From: a virus
DNA length: 64,000 nucleotides
Virus record (IMG/VR): IMGVR_UViG_3300025133_009608
Coordinates: 62,001 to 126,000 of that record
Strand: one strand, 5' to 3'
The notes under the pieces were generated by a model. That model was not told where the DNA came from. It saw nothing but the letters and a program-made list of their open reading frames with translations, and made no database searches. Each line of letters opens with the position of its first letter. Positions within the stretch are counted from its first letter, which is position 1. The translations under genes were made by a program, and so were the position numbers. Positions 2,668 to 62,036 of the stretch are shown here, in pieces.

Positions 2668-4314
2668 TTAATATTTGTGATTTAAATTGCCATTTTGTGG
2701 CGGGCGCCATCCGGCCGGAGGCTGCCAGCTCGATGGGTCATCTGGGGCCTCTGATACTATCGATTCTGTATTTAGAAGCAATAACGCTATACTTGATGCA
2801 TTCTCAACCGCAGTTCTGGTAACCTTCTTCGGGTCCAGCACTCCCGCATCAAACATGTCTGCGTATGTATTGGTTGCGGCATTATACCCAAAATTTATAT
2901 TGTCAGACTCAAGAATCTTTGAGATGATAGGCTCTGGGTCTATAAATCCATTCTTTAAAATTTGAGAAATTGGTCTGGCACATGATTTTATCAAAACCTC
3001 TGCGGCAGGCCTAAGCCTCTCGTCTATCTCAGATAAATCAATCATATTTGCAGCACGAAGCATCGCAACTCCACCACCAGGGACCACTCCCTCCTCTATT
3101 GCCGCCAAGGTTGCACTAAGAGCGTCATCCATTCGGTCGCCCTTCTCTCTGAGTTCGAGTTCCGTGCTGTAACCCACTGTTATTACAGCTGCGCGACTAT
3201 TCAAAAATGAAAGCCTCTTTTTCAAATCGATTCTTTCGGAATCCCCCAGTAAGATGTCTTGATCTCGCTTATATTGCTCTATCTTCTTTGAGACTCTATC
3301 TGAATCTTTTTCTCCATCAATTATTTTTGTTGTCGATTTCCCAACAACCACTTGCTTGGCAAGTCCCAAATCCGAAGCCTTCATATCCCTGAGCAAGGCG
3401 CCCGACTTGGGGCTGCAAATATTTGTACCAACCAACATGCTGAGATCATCTAGCCAGTCGGCCTGAGAGGGCCCCATGGTAGGAATCTCTACCGCCACCA
3501 CTTTTAGTCGGCCGAGCTTGTTATTCGCGACCAACGTGGATAGAGCCTCCTGTTTTATTGCCCTAGCAAGAAGCAGCAGCGGCTTATTGTCATTTGACAG
3601 GCTATTAAGCATTGCCATGCAATCCGTTAAGTGCGTTACTTCTCTGTCCACAATGAGAACATTACAATTCTCCATAACAATGCTTCCGCGGTTATTATCC
3701 GCCAAAAATGCAGGAGTAACATATCCAGTTTTAAGCTCTACCCCATCCACAATTCTAACCGTAGTTTCTCCGCCGGGAGACGCCTCTGCCGTTACTGTTC
3801 CGGAGAACCCGACCGAATCGAATGCCTCTGCAATCTTCCCTCCCAAGAGGTGGTCGTTATTTGCAGATATAGTGGCAATGCTTTTTACCATATCATGTCC
3901 GTTAGTTTGAATAGATATGCTATCTAAGTTTTTTGAAATCTGCTCTACAGCCCAAGTAAGCCCATCTCTAAAATCAAGCGGGCTATAGCCCGACTCCATA
4001 AGGACTGCCCCTCTGGAGATAATTTCATGAGCCATTACTGTTGCGGTTGTGGTTCCGTCTCCTGCGATATCTGCGGTTCTTCCTGCAACTTCTTTTACAA
4101 GCTGGCAGGCCAAGTCTTCCACCGGATCTCTTAGCACAACCTCTCTTGCGACAGATACGCCATCCTTTGTAACTACTGGAGCTCCAACAAACTTGCCGAT
4201 GACGACGTTTCTTCCTTGAGGTCCCATCGTAACCGCGACAACGCTTGCTAACTTCTCCACCCCAGACAAAATCTTATCTCTTGCCGCTGTGGAGTGCAAA
4301 ATATCTTTAGCCAT
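2668..4314 (-). CDS. groEL: GroEL-like chaperonin, first copy
   Basis: Group I chaperonin (548 residues, the same length as E. coli GroEL) expected to form ATP-driven folding rings. Visible signatures are TMGPQGRN (29-36), TKDGVSVAREV (49-59), GDGTTTATV (85-93), DDALSATLAAIEEGVVPGGG, which retains the aspartate used for ATP hydrolysis, and FGYNAATNTYADMFDAGVLD. The usual Gly-Gly-Met tail is replaced by a Pro/Trp-rich end (SSWQPPAGWRPP). The start ATG overlaps the ruvC stop by 8 bp. No GroES-like gene is recognisable anywhere in the window, so a host or distant phage co-chaperonin, or co-chaperonin-free action as proposed for some phage chaperonins, would be needed. A second, clearly different GroEL lies at 54808-56409. 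Confidence 0.93.
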   Translation of the reverse strand: MAKDILHSTAARDKILSGVEKLASVVAVTMGPQGRNVVIGKFVGAPVVTKDGVSVAREVVLRDPVEDLACQLVKEVAGRTADIAGDGTTTATVMAHEIISRGAVLMESGYSPLDFRDGLTWAVEQISKNLDSISIQTNGHDMVKSIATISANNDHLLGGKIAEAFDSVGFSGTVTAEASPGGETTVRIVDGVELKTGYVTPAFLADNNRGSIVMENCNVLIVDREVTHLTDCMAMLNSLSNDNKPLLLLARAIKQEALSTLVANNKLGRLKVVAVEIPTMGPSQADWLDDLSMLVGTNICSPKSGALLRDMKASDLGLAKQVVVGKSTTKIIDGEKDSDRVSKKIEQYKRDQDILLGDSERIDLKKRLSFLNSRAAVITVGYSTELELREKGDRMDDALSATLAAIEEGVVPGGGVAMLRAANMIDLSEIDERLRPAAEVLIKSCARPISQILKNGFIDPEPIISKILESDNINFGYNAATNTYADMFDAGVLDPKKVTRTAVENASSIALLLLNTESIVSEAPDDPSSWQPPAGWRPPQNGNLNHKY

Positions 4315-18740: not shown

Positions 18741-19529
18741 TCAGTCCCTATTGAGTATTTCCGCTATTAAGCGCTTGGTTCTTGGCTTCTTTCCAAGCTT
18801 TTTAAGCTTTATACTCGCAGCCCATCCAGTTATTCCGACCTTATCCGCAGCATCCTTTAGGGATAGATCGTATAAGCAGATTAATTCTAAAATCTTCGCG
18901 GTCTTTGGATCAATAGAATCAGTTAATGAACGCAAGGATCTTTGAAACTCCATCATCTGCAGAGAGGTTCTTTTGTCCCCATAAATAGAAGCATCCGCGT
19001 CTATACTGTCTTGAAAGAACTCTCCGTACTCGTCGCCGCTCTTATTCTTTTTTGGATTTATCTGAGAAAATGATATTTCTCCGCGTGATTTTCTAAAAAG
19101 AGCCTTATGCTCCTTTCCGCACGAATCACATATGCCCAAAATATCACTATTTGGATCATTAGACTTTAGAATCTCACCGTCACAATCGCAAAGTATATTT
19201 CCATTTTTTGACTTTAATGAAAATGCATCATTTGAAAGTTTATTTATACTTCTTATTTTTGATACCAACTTGTTTCTAAGATGAATATGCAAGAAGGTAC
19301 TAAGCTTTACTTTCTTTTCGGGGTCAAAGGCCTTGATCCCCTCGATTGCTAATATTACTAGCTCTTGCTTTATGTCTTCAAATCTAAATCCAGGCATATG
19401 TGTTCTAGACGCCATCTTGCACAAAAGCGGATCTATCTTCTTTAAGACCGCTCCATAGCCCTCGCCCGAAATAGTATCTACATATATCTCCTCATTATAC
19501 ATTCTGACTACACCAGAATAACTCTTCAT
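18741..19529 (-). CDS. Late sigma factor, gp55-like with internal zinc site
   Basis: Probable phage sigma factor that redirects host RNA polymerase to late promoters. The region 2-like core (FRFEDIKQELVILAIEGI, then KAFDPEKKVKLSTFLHIHLRN, residues ~46-96 from the chosen start) matches the sigma-70 region 2 helices. The C-terminal residues ~196-251 (SLTDSIDPKTAKILELICLY, then DLSLKDAADKVGITGWAASI) form a region 4-like HTH. Between them is an inserted CDCDG...CDSCG cluster (C114, C116, C134, C137), probably a zinc finger. ATG at 19529 has GGAG 6 nt upstream; a TTG at 19571 would add 14 residues. Linkage to gp46/gp47 homologues resembles T4, and matching TATAAATA promoters occur elsewhere in the window. 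Confidence 0.8.
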   Translation of the reverse strand: MKSYSGVVRMYNEEIYVDTISGEGYGAVLKKIDPLLCKMASRTHMPGFRFEDIKQELVILAIEGIKAFDPEKKVKLSTFLHIHLRNKLVSKIRSINKLSNDAFSLKSKNGNILCDCDGEILKSNDPNSDILGICDSCGKEHKALFRKSRGEISFSQINPKKNKSGDEYGEFFQDSIDADASIYGDKRTSLQMMEFQRSLRSLTDSIDPKTAKILELICLYDLSLKDAADKVGITGWAASIKLKKLGKKPRTKRLIAEILNRD

Positions 19530-19574
19530 TAACTTCTCCGGCCTTGCTTGTGGCTTAAATAATTGTATCAATTC

Positions 19575-35571: not shown

Positions 35572-36090
35572 TTATTTCTCCGTAATCTTTATGTTTGTTG
35601 TATGAGCCGGCTCCGAATGTGGAACTATCAACTCTAGTAATCCATTTTTCATTACCGCCCTTGCCTTGGCGGGGTCAAATGCTGGACTCATAAAAAACTT
35701 TGCCTTAAAACTTCTTCTGGCAATCCCTCTTACGATCATCCCCTGCTGTATTTGTAGGTTTGGATTTTTCGCAGGGTAATCATCCGAAGTCTCGTCGAGA
35801 TCGGCTTCTTCGGCCAAAACTTCGGGCTCCTTCAGTTCAGACCTTACTCCACTACCTGATACAAACAGCTCTCTTCCAGAGGCCTCTATTCGTATATCCT
35901 CTGGGGAATATCCGGCAAGTGCGAAGGCCATATGAAAGCCGTCGGCATCACACCACTGATCTGATTTCGGAAACCTTCCCGAAGTTGACGCCTTCTTAAG
36001 AGAAGAAACCTCTCTATAAAAGGAATCATCGGACCACAATAAGTCCATTATTCTTCCTGGAATGGAAACTCTATTTAACAAGTCCTTCAT
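35572..36090 (-). CDS. Small heat-shock protein (Hsp20/alpha-crystallin)
   Basis: About 172 residues from ATG 36090 (GGAG 8 nt upstream); the in-frame ATG at 36108 has a poor ribosome site and would overlap the upstream gene. The alpha-crystallin domain is visible: DGFHMAFALAGYSPEDIRIE and ASGRELFVSG, a ~40-residue acidic insertion, then IVRGIARRSFKAKFFMSPAF and KNGLLELIVPHSE, where the GLLELIVP strand is the family signature. It would act as an ATP-independent holdase, possibly handing clients to one of the two phage GroELs. The acidic loop is longer than usual. Confidence 0.87.
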   Translation of the reverse strand: MKDLLNRVSIPGRIMDLLWSDDSFYREVSSLKKASTSGRFPKSDQWCDADGFHMAFALAGYSPEDIRIEASGRELFVSGSGVRSELKEPEVLAEEADLDETSDDYPAKNPNLQIQQGMIVRGIARRSFKAKFFMSPAFDPAKARAVMKNGLLELIVPHSEPAHTTNIKITEK

Positions 36091-36091
36091 A

Positions 36092-36403
36092 TTATTGGCT
36101 CCGCTCATCTTCAGTCATTAATTCCACGTACTCACTCACGGACATGAGTGCAAATACTACATTTGATATGATCCAACTAAGAAGACTTGTAGAAAATGCA
36201 GCCTCAAAAATTGGAACGCCCACTATGAATGCCGCTATTGCGCCCACCCATACTCCGGAACACATAGGGCATTGAATTAGGTATCCTATCCTTTCTGATT
36301 TTGATCCAATATACTCCCTAACCGGAAGTATTAAGTCACTAATCGTAAGAACGATTGTGAACCCAACTGTCGACAGAAAAAATATTACCCAATCGCTACC
36401 CAT
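36092..36403 (-). CDS. DUF1360-like small membrane protein
   Basis: 103 residues with an N-terminal hydrophobic helix (VIFFLSTVGFTIVLTIS), a short amphipathic segment and two further membrane-spanning stretches around residues 50-90. The motif YLIQCPMCSGVWVGAI (C-x-x-C-S-G-x-W) is characteristic of the DUF1360 group of phage and bacterial membrane proteins of unknown role. It lies between ThyX-like and Hsp20 genes. Confidence 0.75.
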   Translation of the reverse strand: MGSDWVIFFLSTVGFTIVLTISDLILPVREYIGSKSERIGYLIQCPMCSGVWVGAIAAFIVGVPIFEAAFSTSLLSWIISNVVFALMSVSEYVELMTEDERSQ

Positions 36404-36448: not shown

Positions 36449-37456
36449 TCAATCTATTTTAATATTATGCTCTTCTCCTATGGCCCCTCTCATCTGTTGG
36501 GCGATCCACTGATGTTCTATCTGTGCGTGCGTAGAATCTTTCAAATTAAGATATCCCTTAAAATCATCTATATAAAAGGAAATATATAACTCGGTTATTC
36601 GCCCTTCTGGTAAAATGTATCGAGCAACCTCTCTTAATCTTTTATGTTCATCATTTGATATTATCCCATCTTTTTTTGCAATCCTCGATGACTTCATTAA
36701 TCTAAGGTATTCTTCGAAAACAGCCGCTACTGATGATCGGTATATATCAAGCATTATAGAACTACATGCAGAATCTCCAATAGTATGTCCCATTACCTTT
36801 CCGAATATTTCTGATGTATCATCAAATTTGCTAATAAAATCCTGCGGGACTATTCCGATCCTCTCGCTCGTCATATTTGCAGAACAAGTGCTATGTCCTA
36901 GGATCTGAATGGCTATTGAAAGTGGACACTTTATTCTCCAAGTTGCCCTACTTTGAGATTCAGAGCCAGCATCATGATATGAAACAAGCTCCACTTCCAT
37001 ATTGTGTTCTCCGAGCCTCTCACTTGCGTCAATTTGATTGTCAACTTTTTGCCCAAAAAGATCAAACTTTTCGACCTTTGCAGCAAGGGCTGGCGAATCT
37101 TCGACGAAAAGTTGCCACGCCGAAAGGCTACTATGCCCACCCTTTCTTTCGGATAATAGCGAGGTCTTTGCGAAGTTCCATAGATCCATTGTCATGGTAT
37201 AGACTCCTCCGGTCAGCTCTACTCTTGAAAACTTATTATGCAAGTAGCTATCCATGCCCACCACGGCTTCGTCTCGGCCCCATGAAAACGTCATGGTTAC
37301 GGACTCAAAGGGAGATGTATGAAGATTTTCAATAAGAAAATCAATTACTTCGTCAACCTCGTCGTCTGTTCTTTCTCCCGCCCTTGTCTCACCTGGGACT
37401 GATATCCATGCAGAGTTGGCAACATCTGTCAGATTTCCAGTTATTTTCAAATTCAC
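36449..37456 (-). CDS. ThyX-like flavin-dependent thymidylate synthase, divergent
   Basis: 335 residues. ThyX normally methylates dUMP using FAD, NADPH and methylene-tetrahydrofolate. Family marks are LHTSPFES (45-52), the strand-helix TWRIKCPLSIAIQIL followed by the position of the ThyX signature (187-200), and the C-terminal ARYILPEGRITELYISFYID, then AQIEHQWIAQQM. The signature itself, normally RHRxxSxNxxSxRY, reads GHSTCSANMTSERI: the first and third residues (both Arg) are lost while Ser, Asn, Ser and Arg are kept. There is also ~100 residues of insertion between HTSPFE and the signature. It may be inactive or have another pyrimidine substrate. The GTG start overlaps the M16 stop by 1 bp. 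Confidence 0.75.
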   Translation of the reverse strand: MNLKITGNLTDVANSAWISVPGETRAGERTDDEVDEVIDFLIENLHTSPFESVTMTFSWGRDEAVVGMDSYLHNKFSRVELTGGVYTMTMDLWNFAKTSLLSERKGGHSSLSAWQLFVEDSPALAAKVEKFDLFGQKVDNQIDASERLGEHNMEVELVSYHDAGSESQSRATWRIKCPLSIAIQILGHSTCSANMTSERIGIVPQDFISKFDDTSEIFGKVMGHTIGDSACSSIMLDIYRSSVAAVFEEYLRLMKSSRIAKKDGIISNDEHKRLREVARYILPEGRITELYISFYIDDFKGYLNLKDSTHAQIEHQWIAQQMRGAIGEEHNIKID

Positions 37457-38655
37457 TATTCGCTCTTTGACTTGCAGATCATTGTCAACTTTTTATCGTT
37501 ATCGAATACTATGTTTGCAGCCTCCATTATCGACTCTGGCGTAACCAAAGAAAGAGATGCCATATAGCTCTCGATCGATGGTAGTCCGATCAGCTTCTCT
37601 CTCATTCTGTACTGAGCCATGCCAGAAGCGCTCTCAATCAATCCGTAAGAAGATGCTCTCATTTTATTCTTTGCTCTTTGCAACTCTTCATCAGATATTC
37701 TCGTTGTCTTGATCTTCTCTACCTCGTCTGATATAACTGATAGCATTTCATCTACATTCTCCCCCCGAGTAGACCCGCTAATCAAGGAGAGGGAGCCTCG
37801 CTCCCATTCGTTTAGAGATGAAGATATTCCATAAACAAGTCCTCTTTTTTCTCTTACCTCTGTAAAGAGTCGGCTATCCATCCCTCCTCCGAGAACTGAC
37901 ATTAAAAGCCTAGTCGCCGGAATGTGGTCAGACCCTCGGTTTACTCCGGGGGTTCCTATCCAAACATAGGTATGCTCTAGTCCCGGCCTATTAATCTCGG
38001 CCACTTCGGAGCTAGAATACGAAGAGTCGGCATAATTAAAGCGCCGGGAAACCTTTCCGTTCTCTTTTCCAAAGTGCTTCTCCATAAGAAGATTTGCCTT
38101 TTCCTCGGAAAGATTAGAGCAAAGAGAAACAACCGCATCTCTTTTCTTGCAATATTCCTTGTGAAAGGCATCAACCTCATCTCTAGTAAACTTGCTAATT
38201 GTTTCCTGCGTTCCAATGACTGGCGTGCCGATATAATTGTCAAAAAACTTGTCGGAAAACTTATTCCAGATGTATGAATAATGATTATCTAATCTTGAGA
38301 TTTCCTCTTCCTTCACAACCTCTCTTTCTTTCAAAAACTCATCCTCTGGAAATACCGAATCAAATACTATGTTTGACATTATTTCCATTGCAACATCTAG
38401 ATTTTCGTATGGAACCGTTACGTGATATGCCACAATTTCATGAGAAGTGAAGGCATTTACAGACCCCCCTAAAAAGCCAATTTCCCTTTGAATTTCAAAT
38501 GCAGTTCTTTTGTTCGTACCCTTGAATATGCAATGCTCCAGCATATGTGCTATGCCGGGATTAAAATCCATAGATGACTCCGTTCTAGAGCCAGCATCAA
38601 AGGCTATTACAACCGTTGATAATTTGCTTTCTGTCTTGCTATATGCGTGAATCAT
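37456..38655 (-). CDS. M16-family zinc peptidase
   Basis: 399-residue pitrilysin/processing-peptidase type protease. The inverted zinc motif HMLEH (37-41, HxxEH) with the distal Glu in EREVVKEEEIS about 75 residues later is intact, and the following GSVNAFTSHEIVAYHVTVP matches M16 active-site strands. The C-terminal half (HTYVWIGTPGVNR, then LLMSVLGGGMDSRLFTEVRE and KRGLVYGISSS) is the usual second M16 lobe, with the R...Y substrate-binding motif. Bacterial homologues degrade peptides or process precursors. A phage could use it on prohead proteins or host targets. It is the last gene transcribed after the MoxR/VWA unit terminator. Confidence 0.92.
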   Translation of the reverse strand: MIHAYSKTESKLSTVVIAFDAGSRTESSMDFNPGIAHMLEHCIFKGTNKRTAFEIQREIGFLGGSVNAFTSHEIVAYHVTVPYENLDVAMEIMSNIVFDSVFPEDEFLKEREVVKEEEISRLDNHYSYIWNKFSDKFFDNYIGTPVIGTQETISKFTRDEVDAFHKEYCKKRDAVVSLCSNLSEEKANLLMEKHFGKENGKVSRRFNYADSSYSSSEVAEINRPGLEHTYVWIGTPGVNRGSDHIPATRLLMSVLGGGMDSRLFTEVREKRGLVYGISSSLNEWERGSLSLISGSTRGENVDEMLSVISDEVEKIKTTRISDEELQRAKNKMRASSYGLIESASGMAQYRMREKLIGLPSIESYMASLSLVTPESIMEAANIVFDNDKKLTMICKSKSE

Positions 38656-38663
38656 TTGGTTCC

Positions 38664-38696
38664 TAAAAAAATGGCGACCAATTAACTGATCGCCAT
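38664..38696 (-). terminator. Rho-independent terminator after the MoxR/VWA unit
   Basis: Minus strand ATGGCGATCA...TTGGTCGCCAT forms a 7-bp perfect stem extended by G-U and further pairs, immediately followed by TTTTTT. It lies 7 bp past the VWA gene stop. Confidence 0.8.
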
Positions 38697-38702
38697 CATA
38701 TC

Positions 38703-39842
38703 TTACTTCTTTTTCTGTTCGATTACTACTTTCTTTCCGTATGGAAACTCAACTCCTCGGTCTTGATCGCAAACCGCCCACAACATTCTATACTTGGGCT
38801 TCTCTGGAAATGCGGCATACCCATCCGTAAAGATGACTAGTCCATCATAGTTCTTTTCCTCTGCAAGCTCCATTACCGGATGAAAACAAGTTCCGCCCCG
38901 ACCTACGATGTCAATCTTAGAAGCCTTTTTGGAGTACTCCTTTGGCTCTCCATAGATCTTGGTATCGAACTGAATGAAGTCGGCCTTTACGTGATCGATC
39001 ATCCCATTCAATTCTGTGGCGAAATATGAAAGTTGCTCGTCTGAAACTGATCCTGATGTATCAAATGCAATCAGAAGTCTACTAGTATAGTTTCTCTTAC
39101 TTCCCGGAGAAGTAACTCCATATCGCCTATTGGGGCGCATTCTTGTGTTCCTTCTCCCCATCATTACAAGCTTGTTGATAAAGTATCTAACTTCCTTCTT
39201 CCAATTGACAACCGGCTTGTTGGCCGCGATAATTTGAGCCGCAAGGTTACCAGAGATATTTCCCCAGCCCTTCTTCTCCTGCTCTTTAATCGCCTTCTCT
39301 GCGATATTTCGAACCTTTTCCTCTACAATGTCGTCTTCAAAATCTTCCCACATAGAGTGGTCATCGACAGTATCCCCCTTGCCTTCGATTACCTTTTCGA
39401 AGTCATTGTCCTCGCCTGCTTCTTTCTTCAGGCTTTCGTAATAAAACTCAGCAGACTCGTTGTTATTAAGATCGAACTGCTTTGGATAAAGCGCCCCGTC
39501 AGGAAGCCCTTCGATGTGACAGTTAATCGCCAAGTCTGCCGCAATATTATATCCACGAAAGTTATATGCAAAATGCTTTGCGCGAGTAAGGTGGTGAAGT
39601 AATACATGCAATGCCTCATGCTTCAATACTCCCCTAAGCTCAGTGGACGAAAGACCTTCGATAAACTCTGGATTATAATATAGCGCCAAGTCTACTCGCC
39701 GAATCACTCCGACCGCCATCGTAGGGATCTTTTTTGATTCGCGCTTATTAAGATGGAGGAATACCTCTCCATATAGTGGCTGAAAACATACAAGTTTTGA
39801 GATTGCAGATTCTAGCTTTGCTTTAATTTGTGAGTTTGCCAT
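38703..39842 (-). CDS. VWA domain/metallopeptidase-like protein (DUF2201-like), MoxR partner
   Basis: About 379 residues from ATG 39842, which has AAGGA 7 nt upstream; an upstream in-frame start at 39911 is less likely. The N-terminal domain holds a zincin-like HEALH (75-79) in RGVLKHEALHVLLHHLTRA followed by NIAADLAIN. The C-terminal domain is a von Willebrand A fold with the MIDAS motif DTSGS (261-265), FIQFDTKI, RGGTCFHPV (a MIDAS threonine) and LVIFTDGYAAFP. This domain pair is typical of VWA proteins paired with MoxR ATPases. In bacteria such pairs remodel or insert metals into client proteins. Here it is co-transcribed with the MoxR gene. Confidence 0.87.
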   Translation of the reverse strand: MANSQIKAKLESAISKLVCFQPLYGEVFLHLNKRESKKIPTMAVGVIRRVDLALYYNPEFIEGLSSTELRGVLKHEALHVLLHHLTRAKHFAYNFRGYNIAADLAINCHIEGLPDGALYPKQFDLNNNESAEFYYESLKKEAGEDNDFEKVIEGKGDTVDDHSMWEDFEDDIVEEKVRNIAEKAIKEQEKKGWGNISGNLAAQIIAANKPVVNWKKEVRYFINKLVMMGRRNTRMRPNRRYGVTSPGSKRNYTSRLLIAFDTSGSVSDEQLSYFATELNGMIDHVKADFIQFDTKIYGEPKEYSKKASKIDIVGRGGTCFHPVMELAEEKNYDGLVIFTDGYAAFPEKPKYRMLWAVCDQDRGVEFPYGKKVVIEQKKK

Positions 39843-39874
39843 GATAATATCCTTTTCGACCTGGTTGGAAGTGT

Positions 39875-39897
39875 GAGGCATCTGTAACCCATGCCTC
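39875..39897 (-). other. Intercistronic hairpin between MoxR and VWA genes
   Basis: GAGGCAT and ATGCCTC form a perfect 7-bp stem around a 9-nt loop in the 73-bp gap between the two genes. No T-run follows, so it looks like an RNA processing or stability element that could set the ratio of the two proteins. Confidence 0.45.
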
Positions 39898-39915
39898 CCT
39901 GCGGTTTGCAACTAA

Positions 39916-40992
39916 CTAGTTAGTAAGATAGATTTGCTTCAAGTGCTCGCGGAAATCTTCATCTCCCTGCCACTCCATCACAATCTTCTTTGTCTTTGCG
40001 CCGCTAAGTAGCGCAACCCAAGACTGTGATGCAACATCGTTTGGAAGCATCATAAAGAACTCCCGAAGAGCCTCACGTTGCTTTGTCTTGGTCTTAGTAA
40101 GCGAACGACCGTTAACCTCTGCAACTACTGACCTTGCAAGCGCCGCGATAACCTCAATGTCATTGCAAGCACTCTCGATCTTTGGCTTGGTCTTTTCGAA
40201 GTTATCGAGAACATCTTCTGGCCGCAACTGAGAGAATTCATTCTCTACAAACTTCTGGAACATTACGGCGATCTCTCGGCCAAGCCATCCTTTTGCAACT
40301 TGTGTTAGCATTCCATCGTCTTTAGATTCAATGAGGCTCATCCCCATGATCGAATCGCTAAAAGCAACCCAGCTTCGACGCGAAGGATAAATACGGCCCG
40401 CTTCAAGGTTCCCGACTGGTGGGTCTAGAAGGTTTTGGTTTCGATTAATGAACTCAATACAAGTTGCATGAACCCCTTCTTCTCGCGCCCAGTCAAGCCA
40501 CTCTGTTGCAGATGGATCAAAGTCAACGTGAAACCATCGATCATGAAGTGCGGGATCTAGCTCGACCACATCATATTCATCGTCAGAGTTTACAGCCGCG
40601 ACTACTCGCCAGCCATCGGGAAGCTTTTGTCCATCCAATCGTCTGTCCAAGCAAATCTCAAAGACGGCTTGCAAGACATCTTTGGATGCCCGATTAAGCT
40701 CATCAAAAAACAGGATTCCGTGACTATCGGGATCTGTTGGCCACCACTCTTGCTTTAGAAAGCGAGTAACTCCATTTTCCGCGTCAAGGTGTGGCATACC
40801 TTTAATGTCACCAACCTCGCACTGAGAGAGGCGAACGTCCCAAAAGCCATAATCATTTCCACTCTCAGCGGAAAGCTCGTCGGCAGTTTGACGTACAACG
40901 CTGGACTTTCCAACCCCATGTTTTGCATGGAGCATAATGGACTTATCCGATGGCATTGTCTTTAGAACAGACTTTGTTTGTGCAATATTCAT
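39916..40992 (-). CDS. MoxR-type AAA+ ATPase
   Basis: 358 residues. Walker A HGVGKSS at 25-31; a MoxR-like insert QCEVGDIKGMPHL; Walker B ILFFDELNRA (93-102) with the signature N-R-A of MoxR/dynein-related ATPases; AVFEICLDRRLDGQKLPDGW; sensor-1 VVAAVNSDDEYDVVELDPAL; and the arginine finger in LHDRWFHVDF. It forms a two-gene unit with the VWA/metallopeptidase protein downstream. MoxR ATPases are ring-forming chaperone-like machines that act on clients through their VWA partner. Expression is probably late, since a TATAAATA promoter lies ~75 bp upstream. Confidence 0.9.
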   Translation of the reverse strand: MNIAQTKSVLKTMPSDKSIMLHAKHGVGKSSVVRQTADELSAESGNDYGFWDVRLSQCEVGDIKGMPHLDAENGVTRFLKQEWWPTDPDSHGILFFDELNRASKDVLQAVFEICLDRRLDGQKLPDGWRVVAAVNSDDEYDVVELDPALHDRWFHVDFDPSATEWLDWAREEGVHATCIEFINRNQNLLDPPVGNLEAGRIYPSRRSWVAFSDSIMGMSLIESKDDGMLTQVAKGWLGREIAVMFQKFVENEFSQLRPEDVLDNFEKTKPKIESACNDIEVIAALARSVVAEVNGRSLTKTKTKQREALREFFMMLPNDVASQSWVALLSGAKTKKIVMEWQGDEDFREHLKQIYLTN

Positions 40993-41056
40993 TTTAATTA
41001 TTCCTTGTTCAAATTATTTAGCAGTTGCCTGAGCAGGGCGACCCGCTCAGATAGGT

Positions 41057-41086
41057 ATAATAAATCGATATTATTTATATCAAAAT
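41057..41086 (-). promoter_or_regulatory. T4-like late promoter (TATAAATA) for the MoxR/VWA unit
   Basis: Minus strand reads TTTTGATATAAATAATATCG with the octamer TATAAATA at 41079-41072, identical to the T4 late -10 consensus. Conservation with the other three copies runs on through ATTTATTA. A GAGCGGG-TCGC-CCTGCTC hairpin follows at ~41030-41048 in the leader. Confidence 0.8.
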
Positions 41087-41440: not shown

Positions 41441-42511
41441 TTACTTTCTAGTTCCGTAGGCATGAGACTCTGCGAGCCCCGCGTTTGTTATCTTCATAAA
41501 AGAAGCGTTTTCTCTCAGCTCGCTAATAGTCACTGCATTCGCATAACTCATTCCAGATCGAAGCCCTCCCATGAATTCGTCAAGAATATATTTAGCCTTG
41601 CCTTTCACCGGGATATGTGTCGACACTCCCTCGGCGCAAGTCCCCGGCTTCAGCCCTCCTCTTTTATCTTCTTGAATCTCTCTACTTGCAGCGCCACGAT
41701 AGACCTTCATTTTTCTTCCGTCTATATTCACAATGTCACCGGGAGACTCTATCGTTCCAGCAAAAAGCCCTCCAGCCATGATTGCATCGGCTCCAGCTAC
41801 TATGCTCTTAATCATATCTGACGGATACCTTATCCCTCCATCTGCAATTATAGATACATCTTTATAAGATGTATTTTCGGCCCTTGCTCTTTGGCAATCA
41901 ACAATTGTTGATAGCAATGGAACTCCAAACCCCGTCATTATCCGCGTTGAGCAAATCGCTCCAGACCCGATTGACGCCCTAACCGCATTGGCCCCCGCAT
42001 CTGCCAAGTAAGCAAACCCATCGCCGGTTGCTACATTCCCGGCCATTATTTGGTAATTAGAATTATCTTTAATAAACTCAATCATTTCCTTCATCAGTAT
42101 TGAGTGACCATTTGCAATATCAATAGCAACCCAATCAATTATCGAGCCTATTTCATTTTTTAGCGACAAGAACCTTTCTCGACCCTCTCTTCCCACTCCA
42201 ACTGCCGCTACAACTGGGGCTTCATCGGAATGCTCTGATACTTGCCTCAGTGAGGCAATCTGCTCCCCCGTAGAACTAAACCTATGAACAACCCCCATTG
42301 CCCCATGAGAGCCAAGCTCAGAGGCCATTAACGGCCCCGTAACAGTATCCATAGGAGAGGATATCATTGGAACCTCCAACTTGGTGTTTCCAATGAAAGT
42401 TGCAGTGTCAGGAGAGAGTCTGGATCTCACTTCTGAATATGTCGGAACAAGCAAAACATCATCAAATGATAGTCCAGCATTCCAGATAAAGGAGTTCTTT
42501 GAGTTACTCAT
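41441..42511 (-). CDS. guaB: IMP dehydrogenase-like enzyme lacking CBS domains
   Basis: 356-residue IMPDH/GMP-reductase TIM barrel. Shown by [10 protein letters not shown] (14-23), [28 protein letters not shown] with the catalytic Cys187, [25 protein letters not shown] and MAGGLFAGT. The flap and C-terminus ([11 protein letters not shown], then [20 protein letters not shown] and [10 protein letters not shown]) look more like IMPDH than GMP reductase. The CBS pair usually inserted after ~residue 80 is absent, so allosteric control by ATP/GTP is probably lost. It would convert IMP to XMP with NAD, feeding guanine nucleotides. It is in the same unit as adenylosuccinate synthetase. GMP-reductase activity cannot be excluded. 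Confidence 0.87.
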
Positions 42512-45822: not shown

Positions 45823-46842
45823 TTAAATAACCTCTGGAGAGTATGAAAACAATACTTCCTTTACATTAGAGGTATTTTCCTCCAGCTTCCTTTCTATAAA
45901 TACTTTCATCTTAGCCAAGTTTAAAAACTCAATAATAGAATCATTATGGAACAACTTAAACACATTGAATTCTTCAAGTATATCGCACTTGCTTATTACA
46001 AGATGAGTCGTTCCGGTAACTTCTGCGGCATAAATTAGATTATCTAAATTCATCCAATTTACTTTCCTTCTTCTCCCGGTTGTAACTCCATATTCTTTCC
46101 CCAACTCCCCAAGCTCTGATAGCTCCGGATCATCAAGAAGGGACGCCGGGAATCTTGGATCTTCTCCTGAGCGGGTATCGTAAATTTTCGAACACCCCCA
46201 TATCTCATTAATCTTTTGAGGGGCGAATCCCAAACTGCAAGCTGCATAAGGAAGCGTTTCGCTGGAAGTTACATATGGATATAACCCATGATTTACATCA
46301 AGATAAAATCCCTGAGCACCTTCGCATAAAATGTTTCCGGAAAGTCTGCCATTCCAAATTATAGATGAATCCAAAGTTCCGTCTGCAAGTATCCCCGTTC
46401 TTGCATACTTAGAGGCATAAGCCGGAGCAATTCCTTTTGATGTTGTTCCCAACTTTGCCGCAAGGTTCTTTTTATCAAAAGCAATATGTTCGTCTGTAAC
46501 GATATGACAATTTGGATGAACCTTTACCAGAGAGGTATCAAATCCATTTTGATTTAAATAATCGATCTCTTTATAAAAAGACTCCGGATGCAGAACGCAC
46601 CCCGGCCCGATAAGGGATGTTATTCCATGGAAAACTCCGGACGGGATGAGGTGGGTTTGATACTTTTTCCCATCAAGAAATACAGTGTGTCCTGCGTTGT
46701 TTCCTCCGGCCCATCTTGCAACCATATTATAATAACTTGATCCATCAGGGCTCTTCTTTTTTGAAAGGGCAGAGGAGATTTTCCCTTTACCCTCGTCCCC
46801 CCAGCAAAGCCCAACTGCTATATCAACCGAATTAACTGTCAT
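45823..46842 (-). CDS. purA: Adenylosuccinate synthetase (PurA-type)
   Basis: 339 residues, the short length of archaeal and phage forms (bacterial PurA ~430). Catalytic loop CWGDEGKGK (13-21) keeps the Asp16 that PurZ enzymes of 2-aminoadenine phages replace with Ser. GGNNAGHTV supplies the catalytic His52. Also present are HLIPSGVFH, GTTSKGIAPAYASKYARTG, EGAQGFYLDVNHGLYPYVTS and the C-terminal GVTTGRRRKVNWMNLD. It joins IMP (or dGMP, if PurZ-like) to aspartate using GTP. With the IMPDH-like gene in the same unit it would control the adenine/guanine branch point. Substrate choice cannot be read from sequence. Confidence 0.92.
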   Translation of the reverse strand: MTVNSVDIAVGLCWGDEGKGKISSALSKKKSPDGSSYYNMVARWAGGNNAGHTVFLDGKKYQTHLIPSGVFHGITSLIGPGCVLHPESFYKEIDYLNQNGFDTSLVKVHPNCHIVTDEHIAFDKKNLAAKLGTTSKGIAPAYASKYARTGILADGTLDSSIIWNGRLSGNILCEGAQGFYLDVNHGLYPYVTSSETLPYAACSLGFAPQKINEIWGCSKIYDTRSGEDPRFPASLLDDPELSELGELGKEYGVTTGRRRKVNWMNLDNLIYAAEVTGTTHLVISKCDILEEFNVFKLFHNDSIIEFLNLAKMKVFIERKLEENTSNVKEVLFSYSPEVI

Positions 46843-54807: not shown

Positions 54808-56409
54808 CTATTCCTTGATATCTTCATCATAAATAGCGACTTCAGTAGTTAGAAGTGTTCCGCTGGCAGATGCGGCATGTTCCACTGCCGACCTTACAAC
54901 TTTCACCGGATCAATAACTCCGGACTTTATCATATCTGACTGAAAAGAATTCGTCAGAGCATTATATCCGCAAGTTGTATTTTTTGAGTTTATAATTTTC
55001 TGCATAAACTCATAAGGCTCTACTCCGGCATTGGTCAAGATCTGCTTAAACGGAGCACAAATTGCACGAGATACTATTCCAACTCCAACCGCCTCCTCTG
55101 CAGATAAAGAAGAATCTTTTAATAATTTTTTCAACTCCGGGACGCAATGCAACAGAGCAGCTCCCCCTCCTGGGACGATCCCCTCTTGAATCGCCGCCTG
55201 AACAGCATTTATCGAATCCTCCACTCGATCCTTTCTTTCTCTCATCTCCGCCTCTGACATTCCGCCAACCCTAAGTACCGCAACTGCCCCAGACAGCGTT
55301 GAGAGCCTATGCCGAAGAGATGCAGCCTGATGAGGGAACAGGTCAGAGCTTTCAAGCTGAGACTTTATACCTAGAATCCTAGTCTCCACATCAGCGGAGT
55401 CTCCGCCGCCATCTATTATGGTTGTCTTGTTTCTTGAAATAATTACTTTTCTTGCCGTTCCAAGATCCGAAAGCGATACGCTCCTAAGAGCATTTCCCCC
55501 CTCATTTGTCAGCATTCTCCCGCCACAAATTGTGGCAATATCACCTAACATTTCTGCTCGAATATCTCCAAAGCCAGGAGCCTTCACGGGACAGGAGTCA
55601 AGAGTTCCTCGGGCCTTATTTAAAACAAGAGTCTGCAAGGCCTCTGAGTTTACATCTTTTGCTATAATTACTACTGGCTTCGACGCTTCAGACGCGGCCT
55701 GTAATACAGACAAAAACTCCTGACTAGAAGTAAGGGCATCATCGTATGTAATAATAAATGGATTATCAAACTCAACTGTGAGCTTCTCTTGATTCGTAGA
55801 GAATGCAGGAGAAATATATCCCCTGTCGAATGATAGACCTTCAGTATAAGAGGTCGTTGTTTCTGAGCCAGCCGCCTCTTCTACGGAGATAATTCCATCA
55901 TCCCCAACCGTTGTCACTACCTCTGCGATTAGAGAGCCCAATTCGATATCATTATTCGCAGATATAATTGCAACATCTCTGACCGTATCCGTTCCAGAAA
56001 CCTCTGATGAAATATCTTTCAAAAAAGAGACGACAGTGCTTACTGCTATGTCTATTCCTCTTTTTATCAAAACTGGATTATGCCCAGCGGCAACCATCTT
56101 AGCTCCCTCGGTATAAATCGACTGAGCTAATATGGTTGCCGTTGTTGTTCCGTCACCGGCAACAGAGTTTGTTGATGAGGCAACTGATTTTATGAGCTGA
56201 GCACCCATGTTTTCTATCTTATCCGAAAGACTTATAGAACGAGCAACAGTCACCCCGTCCTTTGTAACCAAAGGGGGGCCGTAAGACCTGTCAATGGCGG
56301 CGTGCCTACCTTTTGGACCTAGAGTTACCTTGACAGCGTTTGCCAAAATATCTAATCCGATTTGCATTCCGCTTCTTGCATCAAGGCCTATCTTTACTTC
56401 TTTGCTCAT
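54808..56409 (-). CDS. groEL: GroEL-like chaperonin, second copy
   Basis: 533-residue group I chaperonin. LGPKGRHAAID (30-40), TKDGVTVARS (49-58), AGDGTTTATI (84-93), SINAVQAAIQEGIVPGGGAA with the hydrolytic Asp just before it, and CGYNALTNSFQSDMIKSGVI are all present. It differs widely from the first copy (2668-4314) but keeps more canonical residues in the first domain (LGPKGR rather than MGPQGR). The C-terminus ends YDEDIKE without Gly-Gly-Met repeats. No groES is adjacent. It is followed by a late promoter and preceded by the small repeat-bearing gene and a candidate sigma-70 promoter, so it may be expressed at a different time from the first copy. Confidence 0.93.
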   Translation of the reverse strand: MSKEVKIGLDARSGMQIGLDILANAVKVTLGPKGRHAAIDRSYGPPLVTKDGVTVARSISLSDKIENMGAQLIKSVASSTNSVAGDGTTTATILAQSIYTEGAKMVAAGHNPVLIKRGIDIAVSTVVSFLKDISSEVSGTDTVRDVAIISANNDIELGSLIAEVVTTVGDDGIISVEEAAGSETTTSYTEGLSFDRGYISPAFSTNQEKLTVEFDNPFIITYDDALTSSQEFLSVLQAASEASKPVVIIAKDVNSEALQTLVLNKARGTLDSCPVKAPGFGDIRAEMLGDIATICGGRMLTNEGGNALRSVSLSDLGTARKVIISRNKTTIIDGGGDSADVETRILGIKSQLESSDLFPHQAASLRHRLSTLSGAVAVLRVGGMSEAEMRERKDRVEDSINAVQAAIQEGIVPGGGAALLHCVPELKKLLKDSSLSAEEAVGVGIVSRAICAPFKQILTNAGVEPYEFMQKIINSKNTTCGYNALTNSFQSDMIKSGVIDPVKVVRSAVEHAASASGTLLTTEVAIYDEDIKE

Positions 56410-61991: not shown

Positions 61992-62036
61992 TATTTGCCT
62001 CTCCTGTTTTCTCTATTGGGGGATATTTTACCAAAA

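Follow-up and report, generated by a model that had tools for sequence, protein, structure and literature searches.

A recurrent RNA pseudoknot between the genes of a predicted MoxR-type AAA+ ATPase and a zincin-VWA protein in a large phage genome

The AAA+ and zincin-VWA gene unit

The locus lies in a 64,000-nucleotide stretch of viral DNA (positions 62,001 to 126,000 of the IMG/VR record IMGVR_UViG_3300025133_009608; hereafter, the window), which is part of a viral contig of 316,664 bases (the 316-kb genome) from a giant phage of marine type. On its minus strand, the genes of a MoxR-type AAA+ ATPase and of a zincin-VWA protein are separated by a gap that contains a small RNA pseudoknot. Five features follow one another on this strand: a promoter motif, the AAA+ gene, an intercistronic structure, the zincin-VWA gene, and a terminator. 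Each of them was located, in line with the original prediction, made from the sequence alone, that the pair forms a self-contained unit.

The AAA+ gene (39916-40992, minus strand) codes for 358 amino acids of a MoxR (NorQ/CbbQ)-like protein with matches to Pfam AAA_5 (3.9e-7, over the cut-off) and phrog_1297 (2.2e-61). The Walker A (GVGKS, residues 26-30) and Walker B (FFDE, residues 95-98) motifs, the sensor asparagine N135, and the arginine finger R152 were invariant in the 17 relatives used for motif comparison (67-84% identity). The top PDB folds for the structure model (pLDDT 76) were NorQ hexamers, NorQ-NorD VWA complexes, and CbbQ (E 1e-6 to 1e-5, TM about 0.5-0.57 of target). As judged from this model, the protein is MoxR-type and closest to NorQ/CbbQ.

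The zincin-VWA gene (38703-39842, minus strand) codes for 379 amino acids and matched Pfam DUF2201_N (putative metallopeptidase, 2.9e-22), DUF2201 (VWA-like, 6e-18), and phrog_1314 (2.5e-73). The zincin motif HEALH was found at residues 75-79 and the MIDAS at DTSGS 261-265 with T318 and D340; both HEXXH and MIDAS (DxSxS, T, D) were invariant in the same 17 relatives and retained in N4 gp25, TDDLMA, and WPEC3. The structure model matched generic VWA and midasin MIDAS folds, and the protein, a predicted protease, is weakly similar in sequence to MJ1213 and HtpX. The PHROG is labelled "HNH endonuclease", and the same label is widespread on N4 gp25-family proteins in GenBank phage records; it is misleading, because the domain content is that of a metallopeptidase-VWA protein. 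An intact MoxR-type AAA+ ATPase with a zincin-VWA partner had been proposed, and the presence and invariance of the Walker A/B, HEALH, and MIDAS motifs bear this out.

An intercistronic RNA pseudoknot

The intercistronic element occupies positions 39875-39905 (minus strand) and begins 10 nucleotides (nt) past the stop codon of the AAA+ gene. It folds as an H-type pseudoknot with a 7-bp stem P1 (39891-39897 paired with 39875-39881), a 3-bp stem P2 (39903-39905 paired with 39887-39889), conserved loops, and a U-rich tail. The AAA-VWA gaps of relatives, located by protein similarity, share the core CCCACRGG-n-AGGCAYAGGG-ttATCAG-GTGYCT. A covariance model was built from 44 sequences and recovered further divergent copies; in the window genome it matched a single copy (39 bits, genome-wide E 7.6e-7).

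Across 114 distinct copies, 98.8% of the cells were paired and 65 double changes were counted, against 10.4 ± 2.7 in shuffled controls, in a set of mutually related copies in which positions fixed by the search patterns may look over-conserved. P1 covaried at four of its seven pairs (A-U/G-C, A-U/C-G, C-G/U-A, and a closing pair of all four types), and the outer pair of P2 varied between C-G, A-U, G-C, and U-A. P2 had been left out of the covariance model, so its covariation was not imposed by the search. The AAA-VWA copies, located almost entirely by protein, gave the same picture: 98.7% of the cells were paired, nine double changes were found (2.5 ± 1.4 in shuffles), and the closing pair of P1 was already present in all four types. 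G-U pairs in P1 indicate an RNA made from this strand. Just inside P2, a non-Watson-Crick position was A.A in 80 of the 114 copies, G.G in 31, and something else in three, which defines two subtypes; the copy in the window is of the G type. The fraction of T at positions +4 to +8 after P1 was 0.60, 0.73, 0.57, 0.54, and 0.49, compared with about 0.24 further on.

The structured intercistronic hairpin of the original prediction is thus real, on comparative evidence and not on folding energy, and it is one copy of a recurrent pseudoknot. No Rfam family matched at the gathering score, nothing relevant appeared at E values up to 1-5, STAXI included, and the element sequence was not found in the literature searched. 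From the aligned copies, we consider the element to be an uncatalogued structured RNA family, very compact and strongly covarying, with an unusual covarying A.A/G.G position. STAXI (RF01728) is a small pseudoknot of Enterobacteriales that occurs in tandem, usually as three repeats with UUCG loops, and often near SSB genes (Weinberg et al. 2010, PMC2864571). The element resembles it in being a small pseudoknot, in occurring in tandem, and in lying near genes of single-stranded DNA-binding protein (SSB), but it drew no match in Rfam, even with relaxed cut-offs.

The first pattern scan of IMG/VR returned at least 120 matches, and together with a second scan, in which a G-subtype pattern was used, the element was found in at least 190 IMG/VR stretches. 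Among the matches listed, 90 of 162 non-redundant copies followed a gp32-like SSB gene (PF08804) and 15 followed this AAA+ gene, the remaining ones lying mostly after small genes of the SSB-RecA region; the next gene downstream was often RecA (46 copies). Of 123 copies in the second set, 64 came after the SSB gene. The distance from the stop codon to the element was narrow (median 10 nt, interquartile range 9-13), and that from the element to the next start codon was wider (median 28, interquartile range 23-41, 95th percentile 135); both were repeated in the second set. Contigs other than the window genome carried one to four copies. The gp32-like SSB was not found in the window genome with a divergent query, which does not imply its absence.

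At the pair in N4, WPEC3, PBS1, and others, the covariance model detected no element. A BLAST search of isolated phages with the 35-nt consensus gave nothing convincing, a method insensitive to diverged copies. A bacterial RNA was considered and rejected: among 84,980 cellular genomes, the scan yielded 22 pattern matches, of which one was a true copy (L163), located in phage-like DNA, and the rest look like chance. This copy (L163/L352) is a single A-type element in the WOR-3 metagenome-assembled chromosome CP070664.1 (about 2.25 Mb), in DNA that also carries phage-type genes for UvsX, a gp32-like SSB, and DNA polymerase. It is either in a prophage or in phage DNA joined to a chimaeric assembly.

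Candidate functions of the pseudoknot

The interpretation that we tentatively prefer, at a confidence somewhat below even, combines an intercistronic attenuator or 3'-end element with an AAA+/VWA remodelling pair that acts in the replication or middle phase. For the element, this is favoured because of its placement, its U-rich tail, and its replacement by terminators in relatives. A position 10 nt past a stop codon is about the entry edge of a terminating ribosome, and the pseudoknot would sit just beyond the footprint of a ribosome halted at the AAA+ stop codon. There it would terminate or shield some of the transcripts, and the upstream product would be made in excess of the downstream one: more AAA+ ring subunits than VWA protein here, and more SSB than RecA in other phages. 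Terminator-like hairpins take the place of the element in L014, L018, L028, and L033/L036, and one is found in the AAA-VWA gap of the distant, unrelated jumbo phage WPEC3. The original prediction had proposed that the hairpin could set the ratio of the two genes; the structure does merit attention and could have this effect. Energetically, it is unremarkable (z = 0.02).

Several observations weigh against this interpretation. Folded alone, the element is no more stable than shuffled sequence (z = 0.02 and 0.20). By terminator criteria, it has a 7-bp stem and a U-rich tail, but the tract starts about 3 nt after P1, unlike in a classic terminator, and the folding energy is not above that of the shuffles. 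The element is directly followed by a classic terminator or a tRNA in several phages, and a second terminator would then be redundant. In PBS1 and S-TIM61, the gap between the two genes leaves little or no space for a structure of this kind. The strict conservation of the loop bases and of the A.A/G.G position suggests recognition by a specific partner, beyond what simple attenuation needs. On the protein side, the structure model of the VWA protein has low confidence (pLDDT 64).

The same placement could serve a 3'-end stabiliser, that is, an RNase-resistant boundary shielding the upstream mRNA without terminating transcription. The tight spacing after stop codons, the U-rich tail, the replacement by stable hairpins, and the position after genes whose products would be needed in quantity (SSB) all fit such a role. 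Its modest predicted stability does not, and where a true terminator comes next, the end would already be protected; we regard this as rather unlikely.

The conserved loop and the A.A/G.G switch suggest an added specific partner and keep alive a riboregulator, in which the pseudoknot would be a protein-bound operator or a riboswitch of the downstream gene with two specificities, A.A and G.G. Along with these covarying non-canonical bases, multiple and tandem copies within one genome and a spacing to the next start that is often 20-30 nt would suit regulation of this kind. The position, however, is fixed to the upstream stop and loose to the start, the downstream genes have no common pathway, terminators take the place of the element in relatives, and the Shine-Dalgarno site lies outside the structure (here the Shine-Dalgarno-like AAGGA of the VWA gene, read straight from the sequence at 39850-39854, minus strand). 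Riboregulation is accordingly judged unlikely. In its boldest form, the element would belong to a new class of sensing RNAs, with a phage protein or a small molecule as its ligand, and would form a regulon throughout a large set of marine phages; A.A and G.G would be interchangeable specificities, and the SSB:RecA and AAA+:VWA outputs would be set in step with replication. We hold this proposal to be improbable.

Tandem copies a few bases apart were seen in L120, L085, L105, and L156, the last with an A-type followed by a G-type copy. Such tandems, and copies that flank interchangeable small genes in the SSB-RecA island, might suggest a recombination border acting at the DNA level, in which the copies would delimit, as cassettes, mobile small genes that lie between SSB and RecA, similar to the PeSL of T4-type phages. 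The compensatory changes in both stems and the G-U pairs in P1 point instead to selection at the RNA level, large contigs mostly carry just one copy, and the element contains no promoter, which together make this the least probable of the alternatives and a very unlikely one. PeSLs are plain stem-loops with an early promoter that stand just after stop codons and are repeated in a genome. The element is like them a conserved structure just past stop codons with repeats in a genome, but is a pseudoknot with conserved loops and without a promoter.

Programmed frameshifting or readthrough from AAA+ to VWA, with the pseudoknot about 10 nt past the stop, was rejected as well: in relatives (e.g. L011), an in-frame stop blocks the VWA frame, and UAA is the commonest stop.

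Relatives, timing, and role of the pair

The two genes correspond to gp24 and gp25 of N4, which are core genes of N4-like phages (Schitoviridae). Public phage records matched the VWA protein in 305 cases and the AAA+ protein in 669, and the order AAA then VWA on one strand was the rule among the phages inspected (N4, WPEC3, Ab09, CRP-7, phiFa, S-TIM61, and PBS1). A pair confined to this genome, with degraded motifs in relatives, had been named as grounds for abandoning the idea; many other phages have the pair, with intact motifs. N4 gp24/gp25 share with the pair studied here the gene order, the Walker A/B, HEXXH, and MIDAS motifs, and PHROGs 1297 and 1314, but are only 23-26% identical, and their 167-bp gap has no pseudoknot.

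For jumbo phages of group 2.2, Iyer et al. 2021 (PMC7824862) described as "previously unrecognized" a MoxR-vWA chaperone pair whose vWA domain is fused to a metallopeptidase, and proposed a role in virion assembly by analogy with the Acidianus two-tailed virus. That pair, as described there, consists of the same two genes with a zincin-like domain fused to vWA and is likewise set in jumbo phages. The lineage here is separate and much diverged, the context favours replication over virion genes, and an intercistronic RNA element is not mentioned in the passage on the published pair. The pair had been put forward as a candidate for an under-described system, but it was already known both from that description and as N4 gp24/gp25. 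By sequence comparison, it is a new member of an established pair type, conserved from N4-like to 300-kb phages.

Among bacterial systems, NorQ-NorD and CbbQ-CbbO are the nearest, providing the best solved folds for the AAA+ model and having a MIDAS-bearing VWA partner; extra C-terminal helices distinguish the pair found here. To our knowledge, their VWA partner has no zincin domain. By analogy with these systems and with midasin, the VWA protein would tie a client to the AAA+ ring through its MIDAS, the ring would remodel the client, and the zincin domain may cut it. The client, timing, and protein stoichiometry of the pair are, in this scheme, what we infer. A place in a defence locus had also been suggested, and was not supported: PADLOC gave no match among the window proteins or the L011 proteins.

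Upstream of the AAA+ gene, the promoter-like motif TTTTGATATAAATAATATCGATTTATTAT was found at 41057-41085 (minus strand), with TATAAATA at 41072-41079. The octamer is embedded in a 29-bp motif, TTTTGATATAAATAAT[C/A]TCGATTTATTAT, which had four copies in the window (none expected in shuffles) and, by pattern search of the 316-kb genome, nine, each of them on the minus strand, with none in the reversed-pattern control. The motif is more than chance, and TATAAATA alone is not the conserved unit. Since the motif ends in TTATTAT, it can also be read as TTTTGA-17-TATTAT (-35/-10), with the alternative -10 TATTAT at 41057-41062. The promoter claimed in the original prediction therefore stands as a repeated motif above chance, but its T4-type late character is not established: conservation spans 29 bp, and the -35/-10 reading is equally good.

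The 316-kb genome codes for three sigma70-region-2 proteins (18741-19571, minus strand, and about 137.6 kb and 223.4 kb of the contig), which could read either type of promoter. A search for a single-subunit RNA polymerase, run without a positive control, found none. A T4-like late unit, with TATAAATA as a late promoter read by a phage gp55-type sigma factor, would agree with the octamer inside the motif and with the three sigma70-region-2 proteins. We nevertheless consider it unlikely: besides the 29-bp conservation and its alternative reading, neither the motif nor TATAAATA was found upstream of the same AAA+ gene in relatives, and PurA and a TilS-like gene belong to units that the motif precedes.

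Directly after the promoter, RNAfold predicts a 5' leader hairpin of the AAA+ mRNA (41029-41050, minus strand). Relatives mostly share a short leader hairpin in the same place with a different sequence, possibly a second regulatory structure. In many of them, the hairpin is followed by TTGCTGAAAGGAG (e.g. L011:8772-8861, L024:9911-10000). At the other end of the unit, the predicted strong terminator was confirmed as a 12-bp stem followed by T5 (38670-38697, minus strand), and a terminator-like hairpin also follows the VWA gene in relatives.

Beyond this terminator, the unit is adjoined downstream by an M16 (insulinase-type) metallopeptidase gene (37456-38655, minus strand) with HMLEH as its HXXEH motif (Pfam M16 1.1e-26, M16_C 6e-33; no PHROG match). 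The gene lies 3' of VWA in all 26 relative loci, directly adjacent in most relatives, and is possibly a third member of the neighbourhood.

Other genes of the window code for primase, UvsX, DNA polymerase, SbcC/SbcD, endonuclease VII, ThyX, PurA, and IMPDH. Elsewhere, the pair is next to DNA polymerase or helicase in N4, Ab09, and CRP-7, topoisomerase in PBS1, thymidylate synthase in S-TIM61 and WPEC3, and Hsp20 in S-TIM61. In N4, gp24/25 are middle transcripts (PMC4193335), which leaves the late expression claimed for the pair unsupported, as does its company of replication and nucleotide genes here and in other phages. With such neighbours, the pair is probably active during the replication or middle phase and not in late virion building.

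The alternative, a virion assembly or maturation machine that remodels and cuts structural proteins, is possible though on the whole unlikely. It has in its favour the proposal published for the same domain architecture (PMC7824862), the structural genes that lie upstream of the pair in WPEC3, and an extra structural module near gp24/25 in some N4-like roseophages. Opposed to it are the middle transcription in N4 and the neighbours, which are DNA polymerase, helicase, UvsX, ThyX, PurA, and IMPDH and not head or tail genes. Of the virion remodelling idea in the original prediction, what persists is the proximity of some structural genes in WPEC3, set against mostly replication and nucleotide neighbours.

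The window also contains two different complete GroEL genes (2668-4314 and 54808-56409, minus strand) and an Hsp20 gene (35572-36108), which together make an unusually rich chaperone set for a phage. IMPDH/GMP reductase and PurA genes were found at 41441-42511 and 45823-46842 (minus strand). PurA was considered as PurZ of a Z-genome and rejected: it matches the PurZ PHROG, but its NCBIfam score is far better for PurA, and it retains GDEGKGK.

With its replication and nucleotide setting, the pair would have a replication-stage role that is directly testable in the laboratory phage N4. If the pseudoknot sets the SSB:RecA and AAA+:VWA ratios, it would be a portable phage module that fixes stoichiometry within polycistronic messages.

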